Of a DNA stretch of 27,842 bases, positions 22,021 through 27,842 are shown one piece after another; the first letter of the stretch is position 1; each line of letters begins with the position of its first letter. Where the stretch lies: positions 1 to 27,842 of IMG/VR virus record IMGVR_UViG_3300035698_012874; one strand, written 5' to 3'. The position numbers and the translations under genes were made by a program. Below the pieces are notes generated by a model. The model saw only the letters and a list, made by a program, of their open reading frames with translations, was not told the DNA's origin and did no database searches. Origin of the DNA: a virus.

Positions 22021-22911
22021 TTATGAAAGATCCTGAGTTAACATTCGAGCCACTTTGAAGTCCTGGGTAGAAATCTTCGCGTGGAAACCTACAGTTCCGT
22101 ACCATTGAGTACCGATGATGATGTCCTCGCGTGCAAGGATATCTCGGTCAGTCTCAACGTCTGGAGCTGCCTTTAGACAAATTCCGTAAGGATTCGCTTT
22201 CATTAAAAAAGAATAGTGAGATGCCTTACCAGAAATGTCGGCACCCGCAGGAGCTTGATCGTTAACAATAACGGCCATTCCTAAGATACGTCCTTGGAAT
22301 CCAGGGACAGTATAAAGGGGATCGTTAGCGTCCGCTTTCAAGAAGCCTGAAGTCGTGTCATTGATGAGAGCCAAGTAAGACTTGGAGTGCATAATAACAG
22401 CCTGTGCTTCGTCGTGAAGATCTCCGAAAACATCAATACGAGAGGCGTTCAAATCACGGATATTCATGTTTTGACCGTCCGCAGTGGCGATAAAACCATC
22501 CTCGTAGCTTCCGGCAGTGTTAATCAAAGTGACCAAATCAGCGTCAACCTTTTCAGCGTGTCGTCGAGCAATCTGGCGTGCAGATTCTTCTTCGAGGCCA
22601 TTCGGGTTGCGATCTCCAGAAACAATTTTAGCCTTACGTTTGAAAGAAACGGCTTTCGCAACTTCTTTAACGGTGCAGCTAAAGCTGTCGTCTTGGAGAG
22701 CATCAGGAATTACTACATCATTTTCGCCTGGCTCTGTAGCCGCGCCGATAGTCTTGTAATATGGAAACGTAACGGTTTCCCCTGGCTCTGATGTTAATGT
22801 TGGGTCAATTAATGCCAAAGAACCCCAAACGAGTTTTTGGCGAAAGTATGCGTTCGCGTGGTCTTGCCACACTTTTGGTTCAAACGCTAAATCACTACTT
22901 GTTGTAGCCAT
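22021..22911 (-). CDS. Major capsid protein, HK97-type fold (296 aa)
   Basis: It follows the scaffold by 19 bases with a GGGAG Shine-Dalgarno, as expected. Residues about 14-60 (VWQDHANAYFRQKLVWGSLALIDPTL, then EPGETVTFPYYKTIG) match the N-terminal region of an HK97-like major capsid family with a short N-arm; A-domain type sequence is at about 150-230 (DLHDEAQAVIMHSKSYLALINDT, then DPLYTVPGFQGRILGMAVIVND). The C-terminal VGFHAKISTQDF is a usual ending. No prohead protease gene is visible between portal and capsid, and a separate scaffold is present, so maturation probably proceeds without capsid-leader cleavage. Confidence 0.92.
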   Translation of the reverse strand: MATTSSDLAFEPKVWQDHANAYFRQKLVWGSLALIDPTLTSEPGETVTFPYYKTIGAATEPGENDVVIPDALQDDSFSCTVKEVAKAVSFKRKAKIVSGDRNPNGLEEESARQIARRHAEKVDADLVTLINTAGSYEDGFIATADGQNMNIRDLNASRIDVFGDLHDEAQAVIMHSKSYLALINDTTSGFLKADANDPLYTVPGFQGRILGMAVIVNDQAPAGADISGKASHYSFLMKANPYGICLKAAPDVETDRDILAREDIIIGTQWYGTVGFHAKISTQDFKVARMLTQDLS

Positions 22912-22930: not shown

Positions 22931-23701
22931 TTATTTAATTTTACCGGAGGTCACAGACTCATTCATCAGCTTTTGATATAGGGTAGGATTTTTGCGGTAT
23001 AACTCGCTCTTTTCCATCATATTCATGCCAATAAACTTATCCACACTAACCTCGTCGCTGCCGCCTGGTGCTGGTGGTTTCCCACCTTCTCCTCCAGTGC
23101 CCACTGATGTAGAGCCTTTTCCGTTGGTATTCGTGCCACCGTGAATCTTCTTTACGTCCTGAACAATGCTCGCCAGATCCTCGTCTGTGATCTCTTCGCC
23201 TTCTTCAAGACCCTCAACTGCGCGTCGCAACTTAAATTCAAAGTAGTCGACGGCATCGCCACCAGAAATCCCATGCTCTATGGCTGATTCCAGAACAGCA
23301 GTTCTCATTGCGGCCTGTTGATTCGCTTCGGTCAGAGTCTTAATCTTCTCCTCTGGGGTGTCAGAATCTTCCTCAATCCCTAGAGCAGTTAAAACTTTCT
23401 TCATCGTCTCTTGAGTAGACGTCAGCTTCTCACCGCTGGCTTTCGCCTTTAAGCGAGCTTGCTTGTTCTCCTCACGAAGTTTCTTCACATAGCCTTTTAC
23501 TTTTTCCGGCTCCCATGAGGATAAATCCTCGTCGTCACCGTCTTGATCTCCTTGACCTTCTTGGCCTTTAGATCCTTCGTCCCCATCTTGAGAACCTTCA
23601 TTCGTACCACCCTCATTGGAACCAGAAGTTCCTCCAGCGTTACCGCCTTCTTGTCCTTCATCGCCATCTCCGGTGTCTTGATTTGTAGCTGGTTCTGCCA
23701 T
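22931..23701 (-). CDS. Capsid scaffolding protein (256 aa)
   Basis: ATG at 23701 is preceded by AAAGGAG. Residues 1-60 are low complexity, rich in G, D, E and Q. Residues 60-180 are predicted coiled helices (EKVKGYVKKLREENKQARLKAK; SDTPEEKIKTLTEANQQAAM), then a Gly/Pro linker (about 195-215) and a basic C-terminal helix (FIGMNMMEKSELYRKNPTLYQKLMNE) of the kind that binds capsid subunits. It lies immediately before the major capsid gene. There is no protease motif, so a dedicated scaffold that exits the procapsid is the best reading. Confidence 0.88.
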   Translation of the reverse strand: MAEPATNQDTGDGDEGQEGGNAGGTSGSNEGGTNEGSQDGDEGSKGQEGQGDQDGDDEDLSSWEPEKVKGYVKKLREENKQARLKAKASGEKLTSTQETMKKVLTALGIEEDSDTPEEKIKTLTEANQQAAMRTAVLESAIEHGISGGDAVDYFEFKLRRAVEGLEEGEEITDEDLASIVQDVKKIHGGTNTNGKGSTSVGTGGEGGKPPAPGGSDEVSVDKFIGMNMMEKSELYRKNPTLYQKLMNESVTSGKIK

Positions 23702-23745: not shown

Positions 23746-24603
23746 TTACGCTGATTTTGTCCTCTTTTGGACAGAACTATCCCAAGCTTCTCGATAAGGA
23801 ACCAAGATTGCTCGATCATTTGGTCTGTCTGGTGGGGCCATAAATCTGCGCTCTACTCCATTGAATTTAAAAACAAATGGCTCGTCTATGTCTACGATAG
23901 GATTCAAATTCGCCAGTTTTTTGGAGTCATCACCCGTTCTGGAGTCCATTGGATGAATAAGAGTCTTTTGGAGGTCTGGAAGGAGGTCTTCTTGTATTTT
24001 TTCAAACGACCTCATTTTGCCCAGATTATAGATGCCGTGCAGCTCAGTTCTTGCGATGCGTAAAAGCTTCCACTCCTCACCAAGGAAGAACCGGCCAATC
24101 CTCGCCACAATCTCAGAAAGAGAGACCTGCTCGATGGTGGCATTTGTCAGGCCAGCCACGATCGTAGATCTCACACTCTCAGAATATGCCTCCAATGAGG
24201 CTTTCGCCTGATTAATCTTGAAATTCTCCGTCTCCTGAGCCACTAGGACCGCATTGAGATTTATCGGAGTAACTGCTCCTGTAAATTCTCGCTCGAATGC
24301 TCGGGTTTCGGAAAGCGCATCCCTAATTGACCTTTTAATGGCCCTTTGGAGTGCTGGTCTAAAATCTTCTTGTAGGACTCGGTTAAGTTCTCGGATAGCT
24401 GAGTCAACCTGCAAGACAACTCCAGCAAGTCTTTGCGCAGTGAAACTGCCTGGCGGGAGAGAGTCGAGACGATCCCTAAAAGTTCTTCTAACCTCTCGAT
24501 ATCGACGGAGGAGCTTTGTTGCTTCTTCTTCTTCAAGACTTCTTACCTGCTGTATGTGTAGCTCGGCGATCCCCAAAGAATCAACGTCTTCAAAGAATCC
24601 CAC
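23746..24603 (-). CDS. MuF-like minor head protein (285 aa)
   Basis: Translation begins with GTG at 24603, with AGGAG six or so bases upstream. The C-terminal domain shows the Mu F / SPP1 gp7 signature: IARTELHGIYNLGKMRSF (about residues 181-198), then HPMDSRTGDDSKKLANLNPIVDIDEPF and a final PPDRPNDRAILVPYR. The family binds portal inside or beside the procapsid and is needed for DNA ejection or head assembly. The usual PxHPxCRC ending is replaced by PPDRPNDRA, lacking the conserved His and Cys. Residues 1-120 are helical (coil-forming). No toxin domain is fused here. Confidence 0.88.
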   Translation of the reverse strand: MGFFEDVDSLGIAELHIQQVRSLEEEEATKLLRRYREVRRTFRDRLDSLPPGSFTAQRLAGVVLQVDSAIRELNRVLQEDFRPALQRAIKRSIRDALSETRAFEREFTGAVTPINLNAVLVAQETENFKINQAKASLEAYSESVRSTIVAGLTNATIEQVSLSEIVARIGRFFLGEEWKLLRIARTELHGIYNLGKMRSFEKIQEDLLPDLQKTLIHPMDSRTGDDSKKLANLNPIVDIDEPFVFKFNGVERRFMAPPDRPNDRAILVPYREAWDSSVQKRTKSA

Positions 24604-24605
24604 TA

Positions 24606-25160
24606 TTATCTCCTATTTTTGGCTATAAGCTGTTTTAGGGCTTTAGGACTCTTAAACCTTCTTAGAGCAATGGCTGATCCCGCGGCGAATACGGCTGGGG
24701 CTATACTGTCAGTTAAAAGCTCAGAAGACTCTGTAAGCTGTTTCCCTGTCGTCCCCTCGATAACATTCTCAATGCCTTTTCCAACCAAAGAGCCGAAAAC
24801 ACCAAATCCAATAAGCTTCGATGACTTGCCAAAGAATTTAGAGGTTTGCATACCTCTTCGCGCTTGTTTACGAACCTTGGAAAATTCTTTTCCCGTCTTG
24901 AAGTCGTCAAAGGTGAATTGTCCCTTTGGTCCTGTGGGAGTAAGACTTTTGCCGACATTTCCAAAGGAGAATAGTTTTCTTGAGAAGTTCATTTTTTGAA
25001 GTGATTTGGCAAATATGCCTCCAGAGGCCGCTAACCCTAGAGATCCTGCTACTACCTGAGCAGCCCCTCTTTTTTGCTGATCTCGTCGAACCTTGATAGG
25101 AATGATTCGACCCCTTACTCGTCTGAAAACAACTTTATGAGATTTATTATCTTTTGACAT
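24606..25160 (-). CDS. Basic glycine-rich protein D of portal-MuF array (184 aa)
   Basis: ATG at 25160 overlaps the preceding gene by 14 bases; an in-frame GTG at 25178 overlaps the probable GGAGGGG Shine-Dalgarno. Residues 11-25 carry the box VFRRVRGRIIPIKVR found also in the next two genes upstream, and a weaker form in the third. Gly/Ala-rich hydrophobic helices lie at about 32-51, 115-131 and 151-166, separated by strongly basic sequence. No signal peptide is present. Its location between portal and MuF and its membrane-active composition suggest an internal virion protein ejected with DNA, by analogy with podophage pore proteins. No family is recognised. Confidence 0.78.
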   Translation of the reverse strand: MSKDNKSHKVVFRRVRGRIIPIKVRRDQQKRGAAQVVAGSLGLAASGGIFAKSLQKMNFSRKLFSFGNVGKSLTPTGPKGQFTFDDFKTGKEFSKVRKQARRGMQTSKFFGKSSKLIGFGVFGSLVGKGIENVIEGTTGKQLTESSELLTDSIAPAVFAAGSAIALRRFKSPKALKQLIAKNRR

Positions 25161-25656
25161 TTCTATCGTCCCCTCCACTTAGAAAGCCTGGGAGTCTTGC
25201 CCCAAATCTAGTGTTTGCTTGCATGTTGAAGCCAGAGCTTGAAGTCAGAAAGCTCCCAGCGAGGGCCGCCACTAATAACTTGAGTTTGTTTTTTCCAGCC
25301 AAATTTACTGTCTTTTTGAACAAGCTTCTTTGACTGAATTTGACAGGAGTTTTTGACTTCTTATCTAATCCAAAGGTTCGTAAACCTCTCTTTACGGCAA
25401 CGGTACTTTTCCTAGAGAAACGGCTCTGCTTTATCTTCTTACCTAAAAGCCTTGATCCAACAATGCCCACAATTCCAGCCGATGAAAGAGCAGCGCCAGC
25501 CGCTCCAATTTTCTGAAGATCGGCCCCTACTTCCCGTTTATTCACGATAGGAACAATACGGCCCCTAATGCGTCTGAAGATGATTCTTGGCCTTCCAAAT
25601 TGAACCTCTTCCCTTACCGAGTTTATGGGGTTCTGTGTGTCTATTCCTCCAGCCAT
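25147..25656 (-). CDS. Basic glycine-rich protein C of portal-MuF array (169 aa)
   Basis: ATG at 25656 forms TAATG with the preceding stop. The box IIFRRIRGRIVPI lies at residues 25-37, shifted by about 15 residues because of an extra N-terminal stretch (MAGGIDTQNPINSVREEVQF). Gly/Ala-rich hydrophobic helices are at about 50-72 and 124-141, with a basic middle (KKIKQSRFSRKSTVAVKRGLR). The C-terminus ends FGARLPGFLSGGDDRNVKR. It has no cysteines or signal peptide. It is similar in plan to its neighbours; the function is unknown, and an ejected virion protein is the inferred role. Confidence 0.78.
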   Translation of the reverse strand: MAGGIDTQNPINSVREEVQFGRPRIIFRRIRGRIVPIVNKREVGADLQKIGAAGAALSSAGIVGIVGSRLLGKKIKQSRFSRKSTVAVKRGLRTFGLDKKSKTPVKFSQRSLFKKTVNLAGKNKLKLLVAALAGSFLTSSSGFNMQANTRFGARLPGFLSGGDDRNVKR

Positions 25657-26171
25657 TATATGTCTCTCAACTTCAAGGGGAATTTACCGCCCCTTAATCC
25701 AAATTTCTCGAATCTCTTTGCTAATCTAGTCACCGCAAAACCTCCAGTAAGTCCTATTGCAATGGCAGCAGGGCTTATGCCCGATCCTATATTGAAAAGT
25801 CTGCTCTTCTCATCCTTTTTAGTTCTTCGATCGAGGCTGGTCAGTAGAGACGCAGCGGCTACTCCTGGGATGAATTTGGAACTAAACTTTGTGACTTTTG
25901 CCAATTTGTTCAGTCTGAATGACTTCTTTCCCTTGGATGCCAATGAAGACCTTTCAATCTTTCCGGCCCCAAAAACACCACCCAAAGAAACAAAACTAAT
26001 GGCAGCAGCGATGCCCGCGTCCTTTGCTGTTATTGCTCCCAAGAGAGAGCTTGCAGCCCTTACTTCAGATCCGGCAGCTTTTGACAGGCTGACATTTCTT
26101 GGCCTGATAGGGACAATTCTTCCCCTGATTCTTCGGAAGGATACTGGCCTATTTCCTTTTTTTTGCGCCAT
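25656..26171 (-). CDS. Basic glycine-rich protein B of portal-MuF array (171 aa)
   Basis: ATG at 26171 forms TAATG with the preceding stop. The N-terminal box SFRRIRGRIVPIRPR is at residues 11-25. Hydrophobic Gly/Ala-rich helices lie at about 51-70 (DAGIAAAISFVSLGGVFGAG) and 128-147 (IGSGISPAAIAIGLTGGFAV), separated by a basic Ser/Lys stretch, and the tail is basic (AKRFEKFGLRGGKFPLK). It is the closest in the box to protein C. A long plus-strand open frame over it (25600-26232) is an antisense shadow. Confidence 0.78.
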   Translation of the reverse strand: MAQKKGNRPVSFRRIRGRIVPIRPRNVSLSKAAGSEVRAASSLLGAITAKDAGIAAAISFVSLGGVFGAGKIERSSLASKGKKSFRLNKLAKVTKFSSKFIPGVAAASLLTSLDRRTKKDEKSRLFNIGSGISPAAIAIGLTGGFAVTRLAKRFEKFGLRGGKFPLKLRDI

Positions 26172-26707
26172 TATCTTCTCCTCTTCTGGTTATCTAAGAT
26201 CCCTTGAAACTGAGAAGGGCTACTTGAACTGATATTTTTCTTTTTAATTCTAATGCTTCTTTTATCTAGAGCCGTAGAGGCTTTAGATCCGGCGAATAAT
26301 AATCCACCAATGGCGGCGGTGGCTAATCCAAGTTTACCTGCTTTTCGTCCAGCTAAAATCTTTCGAGATCCCTTCCTAAGAAGGTTTGATCTACCTCTTT
26401 TGCTCACTTTTAGAGCCCTTGAAGTCTTTTTGTTAGAAAATAGATTTTTGGTAGCAGATCCACTGGCACCTAATAGGCCACCCAATGAGGCCAATCCTAG
26501 CCCAGCAATAATCGCGCTTTTGCCAACCTTCTCAGATTTCTTATTGAGTTTTATCGACTTTTTTGAAGACTTGATTCCACTCCGTTGAATGGCTTTGAAA
26601 CTCTTATCTGCTCTTTTGGCGTCATCTCCAGGTTTTGCTCGAATAGGAATGACCTTTCCATTCTTGCGAATGAATTTGATCTTGTTGCCTTTTTTATCTG
26701 TTGCCAT
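26171..26707 (-). CDS. Basic glycine-rich protein A of portal-MuF array (178 aa)
   Basis: ATG at 26707 has AGGAG six bases upstream, overlapping the portal stop region. The N-terminal box is the divergent form KFIRKNGKVIPIRAK at residues 11-25. Hydrophobic, glycine-zipper-like helices are at about 63-85 (KSAIIAGLGLASLGGLLGAS) and 124-141, with a very Lys/Arg-rich remainder and a basic C-terminal tail (DNQKRRR). It is the first of the four related genes and the most basic. The presumed role is the same as for its neighbours. Confidence 0.77.
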   Translation of the reverse strand: MATDKKGNKIKFIRKNGKVIPIRAKPGDDAKRADKSFKAIQRSGIKSSKKSIKLNKKSEKVGKSAIIAGLGLASLGGLLGASGSATKNLFSNKKTSRALKVSKRGRSNLLRKGSRKILAGRKAGKLGLATAAIGGLLFAGSKASTALDKRSIRIKKKNISSSSPSQFQGILDNQKRRR

Positions 26708-26715
26708 TTTTTCTC

Positions 26716-27842
26716 CTAAAATCCACCAAAGGGATTGATAACAGGCTGTGCATCTATTTTAGCTTTTTCTGCTTCCACATCCTCGATATTGAAATCTTCC
26801 GCTAGGAATCGAGTTCCAGTCTCTCTGCTGACGATATTCGCGGAAGTCGCACCTGACACCATAGCGACCTTTTTCTGTAGATCCTCAATCGTTTGCTGAA
26901 CCACAGGAGGCCATTTGATATCCATATCCAAAGACTTGGGCGTGAAGCCTGGAGGAATATTAACGGGCACTGGTTCGCCGCGGGAGTTTAACTCTAATAC
27001 GGCAATGGACATCTTGGTGATTAGGCTTCTGAGCTGAAACTCAATAGCCGGTCGAAGTTCATTAATCAGCTCGATCATTGGCCCATGAAGGATCTCTAAA
27101 GCTCTTCCAGACTGAGCATTGGCTACCATCTTTTCGGGGTCCATTAGGACAATCCGAGCAATATCTTGAACTCCTAATCGAATATCATCTCTAAACTCTG
27201 AAGCTCTTTGAATTGCTCCAAGATTAGACTCTAGGAAGCTCGCAGCTCCATCTTTTCCAAGGTTCCAACCCTTTTGGGAGCTTCTAACCAGATCTCCAAT
27301 CTCGTCCATATCCATCCCATTGATAATGAGTTGGGGATCTTGATTGTATTGGATGACCTGAGAGCTTTGCGAAATGTTGTAATTCATCTCATCGATGAAG
27401 TCTAAAATGTCCGCAATAAGGCTTGCCCCATCTGGGGTATCTCTATTTTCAGTGGTCCTAAACCATTCACCTTGAACAAAGCCGAAACCGTGCACGACCT
27501 CTTGTTCTACCTTGAAATCAACATCTATTGGCGTTTCATCCACTTTGAAATCTGGGGTATCGAAAAGGATGTCTTTTTCTTTGCCGAGATCCATGCGAAA
27601 CCACTTCTTTTTAGGGTCTCCCTTCTCGTCCTTCTCTTTCTTATCAGTGAAAACAAACTGTATTCTTGTGCTTTCAAGCTCTCCTGAAGGATCAAATATA
27701 GGAAATACGTGTTTTGATAGGAAATGTTCAACCTGGATTTGACCACCTGTTATATGAAATCGAACAAATACAGATCCAGAGACCGTCATTCGACGAATAG
27801 GCTCCAAAAGACGGAATCTGATTTTAGCCGCCTTCTGGACAA
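26716..27842 (-). CDS. Portal protein, 5' end outside window
   Basis: The frame continues to the upstream window edge, so the first part is missing; 374 residues are visible, the first being VQKAAKIRFRLLEP. The in-frame TTG at 27807 is not a likely start because the reading frame is open and portal-like before it. The visible part fits portal of the SPP1 gp6-like class: SVFVRFHITGG, a wing region with a basic lysine-rich loop (KKEKDEKGDPKKKW), the stem region (EIGDLVRSSQKGWNL; EFRDDIRLGVQDIARIVLMDPEKM), and a C-terminal clip/crown part (SRETGTRFLAEDFNIEDVEAEKAKI). Portal forms the 12-mer DNA entry vertex and binds terminase, which would be further upstream. Confidence 0.88.
   Translation of the reverse strand, partial: VQKAAKIRFRLLEPIRRMTVSGSVFVRFHITGGQIQVEHFLSKHVFPIFDPSGELESTRIQFVFTDKKEKDEKGDPKKKWFRMDLGKEKDILFDTPDFKVDETPIDVDFKVEQEVVHGFGFVQGEWFRTTENRDTPDGASLIADILDFIDEMNYNISQSSQVIQYNQDPQLIINGMDMDEIGDLVRSSQKGWNLGKDGAASFLESNLGAIQRASEFRDDIRLGVQDIARIVLMDPEKMVANAQSGRALEILHGPMIELINELRPAIEFQLRSLITKMSIAVLELNSRGEPVPVNIPPGFTPKSLDMDIKWPPVVQQTIEDLQKKVAMVSGATSANIVSRETGTRFLAEDFNIEDVEAEKAKIDAQPVINPFGGF

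Follow-up and report, generated by a model that had tools for sequence, protein, structure and literature searches.

Four adjacent genes of the phage studied here, A to D, carry near the N-terminus a short conserved sequence of 11 residues, hereafter the box, which belongs to a real, clade-wide system of protein tags. So far as our literature search shows the system is undescribed, and the box itself was not found printed in any phage context. We consider it probable that the box is a terminal hairpin serving as an address tag, by which basic and unrelated proteins would be loaded into the head for ejection with the DNA. With a head-loading sequence tag, injected effectors, most of which are unannotated in metagenomes, could be identified there directly, and the poorly understood question of how unrelated proteins are selected for encapsidation becomes testable. 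Candidates for early host takeover and counter-defence could also be drawn straight from the tagged set.

The window, by which we mean the whole stretch of DNA that was analysed, is a 27.8-kb virus record from a contractile-tailed phage (sheath, phrog_279; baseplate wedge, phrog_6). Its head module lies on the minus strand, where A to D are four abutting or overlapping late ORFs with a portal gene on one side and a MuF-like gene on the other (Table 1). An alternative GTG start of D at 25178 would give a protein of 190 aa. The charge of A to D ranges from +0.15 to +0.23 per residue, and that of the remaining window genes is at most +0.034 (24 window genes tested). The original prediction of four adjacent, strongly basic genes with a short conserved box was therefore borne out by the ORFs, the charge and the box pattern. 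The scaffold-like protein has a net charge of -0.086 per residue, and this acidic protein is a candidate partner of the basic cargo. No signal peptide was seen in A to D when judged by eye, and an unsystematic inspection revealed no protease gene between the portal and the capsid gene of the window. Pfam gave no match for A to D and PHROG gave weak matches for A only, while a PDB sequence search with the D profile gave no match worth reporting.

Table 1. Head-module genes of the window and the boxes that they encode.
Feature	Position	Strand	Evidence or remark
Portal protein, SPP1 gp6 type	26716..27840	-	Pfam SPP1_portal E 5.9e-12; phrog_64 E 1.4e-19; 5' end cut by window
Gene A, 178 aa, basic, box-tagged	26171..26707	-	ORF; end overlaps start of B
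Box in A, FIRKNGKVIPI, residues 12-22	26642..26674	-	
Gene B, 171 aa	25656..26171	-	Orthologues L024, L028, L033, L062, L127 (cluster alignment)
Box in B, FRRIRGRIVPI, residues 12-22	26106..26138	-	
Gene C, 169 aa	25147..25656	-	Orthologues L024, L028, L033, L062, L127 (cluster alignment)
Box in C, FRRIRGRIVPI, residues 27-37	25546..25578	-	
Gene D, 184 aa from ATG	24606..25160	-	Commonest tagged family, usually adjoining MuF
Box in D, FRRVRGRIIPI, residues 12-22	25095..25127	-	Modelled as beta-hairpin
MuF-like head morphogenesis protein, without box	23746..24603	-	phrog_3517 E 1.6e-6; conserved in relatives
Acidic scaffold-like protein	22931..23701	-	phrog_8952 E 7.1e-8 (unknown function); weak phrog_4866 head scaffolding E 0.0045
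Major capsid protein	22021..22911	-	phrog_544 E 1.3e-33

Relatives were fetched by portal and MuF profiles from IMG/VR and, with two MAG contigs, made up 139 loci (1.57 Mb). The box consensus is [VI]-x-F-[RI]-R-[IKV]-x-G-R-[IV]-[IV]-P-I, in which Gly6 and Pro10 do not vary across the set because the pattern itself requires them, and Phe1 is F in 220 of 223 cases. Six-frame translation of the loci yielded 358 matches, 351 of them on the plus strand of the loci, compared to none in the reversed translations, so that the box is far beyond chance. The boxes are confined to protein ends. None of the 230 boxes found in 223 distinct ORFs is more than 35 residues from a terminus (193 are N-terminal and 37 C-terminal, with none between), and seven of the 223 ORFs have a box at both ends. 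Of the 182 proteins that have a single box and a length of 110 aa or more, every one has it no more than 35 aa from an end, where 77 would be expected. A test that is free of start-codon assignment gave the same picture, with 224 of 232 boxes at most 45 codons from an upstream in-frame stop or at most 25 from a downstream one. A protein with a C-terminal box typically ends 2-8 residues after it.

The box is conserved at the protein level, since synonymous codons vary among identical boxes: 16 copies of FIRKNGRIIPI are written in 13 DNA forms, and the four copies in the window all differ in DNA. A recombination site or regulatory repeat that is read as protein only incidentally would recur along the genome as the box does and would explain the shuffling of cargo, but identical boxes in different codons, always in frame and terminal, leave that explanation next to no weight, and the codon diversity rules out a DNA-level repeat. 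Boxes on unrelated cargo of one phage are more alike than chance (0 of 500 shuffles reached the observed similarity, with the same result in a reduced alphabet), a similarity to which base composition or common descent may contribute in part. In an AlphaFold model of D built from 51 family members, the box is predicted to form a beta-hairpin with strands at residues 10-15 and 18-23. The mean pLDDT is 94 across residues 11-20, and the long helices that come after the hairpin are modelled with moderate confidence. A fold search of this model against BFVD returned nothing significant.

The four genes had been described as tandem paralogues. With the box masked, pairwise z scores among A to D were -0.9 to 2.8, values that also occur when cargo pairs are drawn at random from different phages (90th percentile z 2.7). 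Profile, blastp and shuffle comparisons likewise placed A to D no higher than such random pairs, and paralogy was rejected except for the borderline pair C and D (masked E 0.004, z 2.8). By cluster alignment, B, C and D belong to three different families that have orthologues of their own, the D family having about 50 members in the blastp clusters. As judged from these sequence comparisons, A to D are not supported as paralogues, and what they have in common appears to be the tag and not an ancestry by tandem duplication. The expectation of at least two hydrophobic helices in each protein held only in part; a simple 19-residue hydropathy test detected a single segment each in A, B and D but did not detect any in C, and the long helices of D appear in its AlphaFold model. 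It is very improbable that A to D are products of tandem duplication forming a hetero-oligomeric channel, with the box as the best-kept ancestral part. The tandem arrangement and the borderline similarity of C and D outside the box would fit such a history, whereas the random-level masked similarity, the separate orthologous families and the occurrence of an identical box type on GNAT and ART proteins and at C-terminal ends speak against it. The ejection channel of four paralogues is further weakened because enzymes are numerous among the tagged proteins, and a membrane-grade hydrophobic segment is present in no more than about one fifth of the tagged set. The original prediction thus picked the right feature and guessed a tag; its errors were to treat the four genes as paralogous and to see a single channel in them.

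The tagged proteins are highly varied. They fall into 93 blastp clusters, and Pfam recognised 11 GNATs, 7 glycine zippers and ART-PolyVal ADP-ribosyltransferases (E 1.6e-17 and 2.6e-14). ART-PolyVal exceeds the cut-off in L013:8578-9321 and L121:3536-4282. Among GNATs above the Pfam cut-off, the tag is at the N-terminal end in L012:9736-10269 and at the C-terminal end in L121:4863-5348. Even within one homologous GNAT family the cluster alignment shows the tag at the C-terminal end in L055:1641-2201 and at the N-terminal end in the others. Weaker matches or motifs suggest that HEXXH metallopeptidases and a PARP-like, an ATP-grasp-like and an NlpC/LRAT-like protein are also among the cargo, the HEXXH, kinase-like and ATP-grasp-like assignments being weak or made by eye. 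A kinase-like reading of L073:3799-4791 made by eye was discarded, as it had no Pfam or PDB match. Most cargo, A to D included, has no recognisable domain. ADP-ribosyltransferase-type box proteins were also observed in L182 (around 2602) and L184 (around 2827), the latter with a C-terminal box and assigned by eye with no Pfam match.

All tagged proteins are below 350 aa and none has two effector domains. With the box removed, 216 of 216 are net basic (median +0.14 per residue), in contrast to the portal, MuF, capsid and scaffold proteins, whose charge is near zero or negative. Strong basicity and location in the head module are also what would be expected if the box docked permanent structural or DNA-condensing internal proteins on the portal or inner capsid, with no delivery to the host. 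We regard this as unlikely, because a fixed structural set would not be expected to include ART-PolyVal and GNAT enzymes, or to vary as greatly as the cargo does from one related phage to the next.

The original prediction placed the box among portal-adjacent genes, and the tag idea survived a check of this position. In 68 distinct contigs with both portal and MuF, 147 boxes lie between these two genes, in 54 contigs with one to five tagged genes each; a further 13 lie between terminase and portal and 26 past MuF or the capsid gene, and none lies inside portal or MuF. Several of the contigs with no match are explained by a GH variant (e.g. FRRINGHIVPI) that the pattern misses, and the most distant contigs are truly without a box. 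These positional statistics are biased to the portal/MuF region because the loci had been collected by their resemblance to portal and MuF. All of IMG/VR was therefore scanned with four box DNA patterns, independently of the portal. The box was detected on 74 contigs, and almost every one belongs to a single clade of uncultured myoviruses, with membership judged by marker genes or by contigs already assigned to the clade. The exceptions are L175, a 3.3-kb fragment, and L199, a piece with no markers.

In L175:1-3334, a box protein (FIRKDGRIIPI) is found among genes that read, by eye, as siphovirus-like tail genes; given this fragment, the tag may also occur outside the myovirus clade. A set of 50,697 phage records contained no match to the box or D, and tblastn of INPHARED with box peptides, D and MuF gave no match, the 22-aa query being weak. 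Among cultured phages the portal matched only Komagataeibacter phages phiKX1/2, at 25% identity. A host in the phylum of the Chitinivibrionales MAG was considered and rejected, and no host was assigned, since the portal is present in 1 of 168 genomes of that phylum. L138 (the same match as L057), a box-bearing contig of the clade, is binned with a Pacearchaeota MAG. This is probably misbinning; an archaeal or episymbiont-associated host for L138 is possible.

L035 is a member of the box clade and has no box. A box-free D profile identifies its D homologue (E 1.9e-12), which starts with SRGGHIIRYTRGGNPVY. The HEXXH protein of L035 is homologous outside the tag to the box-tagged L007:7711-8361 (E 4e-20) and starts with SRGGKIIGYFKTGRPIY. 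Both start with SRGG[KH]II-type tags, and D of L032 has a tag of this type like L035. The joint change of two unrelated cargos in L035 fits the prediction of a tag with a common receptor. The second tag is also found widely among other, larger phages. Several proteins per contig have it there, and it is not always terminal; one copy is on a NUDIX protein. The motif GEGSRGGKIIGHTKSGKPIY, which is the kind of tag present in L032 and L035, was observed in many large-phage contigs among L205-L236 (e.g. L223, L228, L221 and L215), and is often followed by an HKDFTxxDHxDA stretch.

The replacement bears on the possibility that the box acts in the infected cell as a hairpin binding nucleic acid or directing localisation (to DNA, RNA, membrane or ribosome) and not in packaging. 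A hairpin rich in arginine and lysine on proteins that are all basic would suit such a role. It is nevertheless quite unlikely, since the near-exclusive clustering of boxes in the virion gene module (subject to the fetching bias) and the phage-wide tag replacement in L035 are both easier to reconcile with a receptor encoded by the phage than with a generic ligand. The proposal of a packaging tag is well supported, though indirectly, by a box that is terminal, modular, present on unrelated cargo, located at either end and swapped throughout a phage in L035.

In the head-loading model, the box hairpin would bind one common partner in the procapsid during head assembly, with the acidic scaffold, the portal/MuF vertex and the inner capsid surface as candidates. 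Binding would load basic, otherwise unrelated proteins into the head, and these would exit with the DNA at infection. D, which is near-universal and lies beside MuF, is probably the core ejection protein, helical or interacting with the membrane. The variable cargo of other members (ADP-ribosyltransferases, acetyltransferases and metallopeptidase-like proteins) would act on the host. A more far-reaching version, to which we give an even chance, is that in an undescribed clade of uncultured myoviruses a clade-specific beta-hairpin tag at either end is a universal loading code for fast-changing injected effectors and ejection proteins, and that one lineage swapped the whole code for a tag common among other phages; a phage receptor matched to the tag would then be implied.

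Similar principles are known elsewhere. Encapsulin cargo-loading peptides are short terminal tags that load unrelated cargo into an HK97-fold shell; here the shell would be a phage capsid with DNA, and the tag is a predicted hairpin at either end. The internal proteins of T4 are highly diverse, are injected with the DNA and have in common only a short capsid-targeting sequence (PMC3012670). The logic is alike, in that only a short terminal sequence is common to unrelated phage proteins here, and the best reading, by analogy, is that the box works like a capsid-targeting sequence. However, IPI-III and Alt of T4 belong to another lineage, the box is a predicted beta-hairpin of different sequence, and 37 of 230 boxes depart from the N-terminal location of the T4 type. 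The box was not filed as a T4 element because of this either-end location and the difference in sequence. In phage P1, the first 30 N-terminal residues of DarB suffice to load a reporter, and no consensus has been reported for Dar N-termini (PMC9024508), in contrast to the strong consensus of the box across at least 90 sequence clusters. Dar proteins are packaged in the virion and delivered to the host, as we infer for the box cargo. Polyvalent-protein domains (ART-PolyVal, GNAT, kinase and peptidase) are predicted to be packaged and injected (PMC5512222). This enzyme repertoire overlaps the box cargo (ART-PolyVal, GNATs) in its head-module context, but polyvalent proteins fuse the domains in one multidomain protein, whereas here single domains are on small separate proteins with one tag. 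Effectors of MuF polymorphic toxins are reported to be delivered via the phage head (PMC5576092). A MuF gene is adjacent here too, as a separate gene with no box and not as an effector-MuF fusion.

A dual-tagged family comprises L001:3340-3885, L005:4992-5531, L009:9421-9936, L014:9119-9622 and relatives. Both boxes are predicted to be hairpins in its model, the C-terminal one at lower confidence, and a fold search of the model against PDB gave nothing significant. Bacterial single-stranded DNA-binding proteins end in an acidic tip, DDDIPF. Members of the dual-tagged family end in DDDVPF, DEVPF or EDAPF, like this tip, and might recruit or block SSB-binding host proteins.
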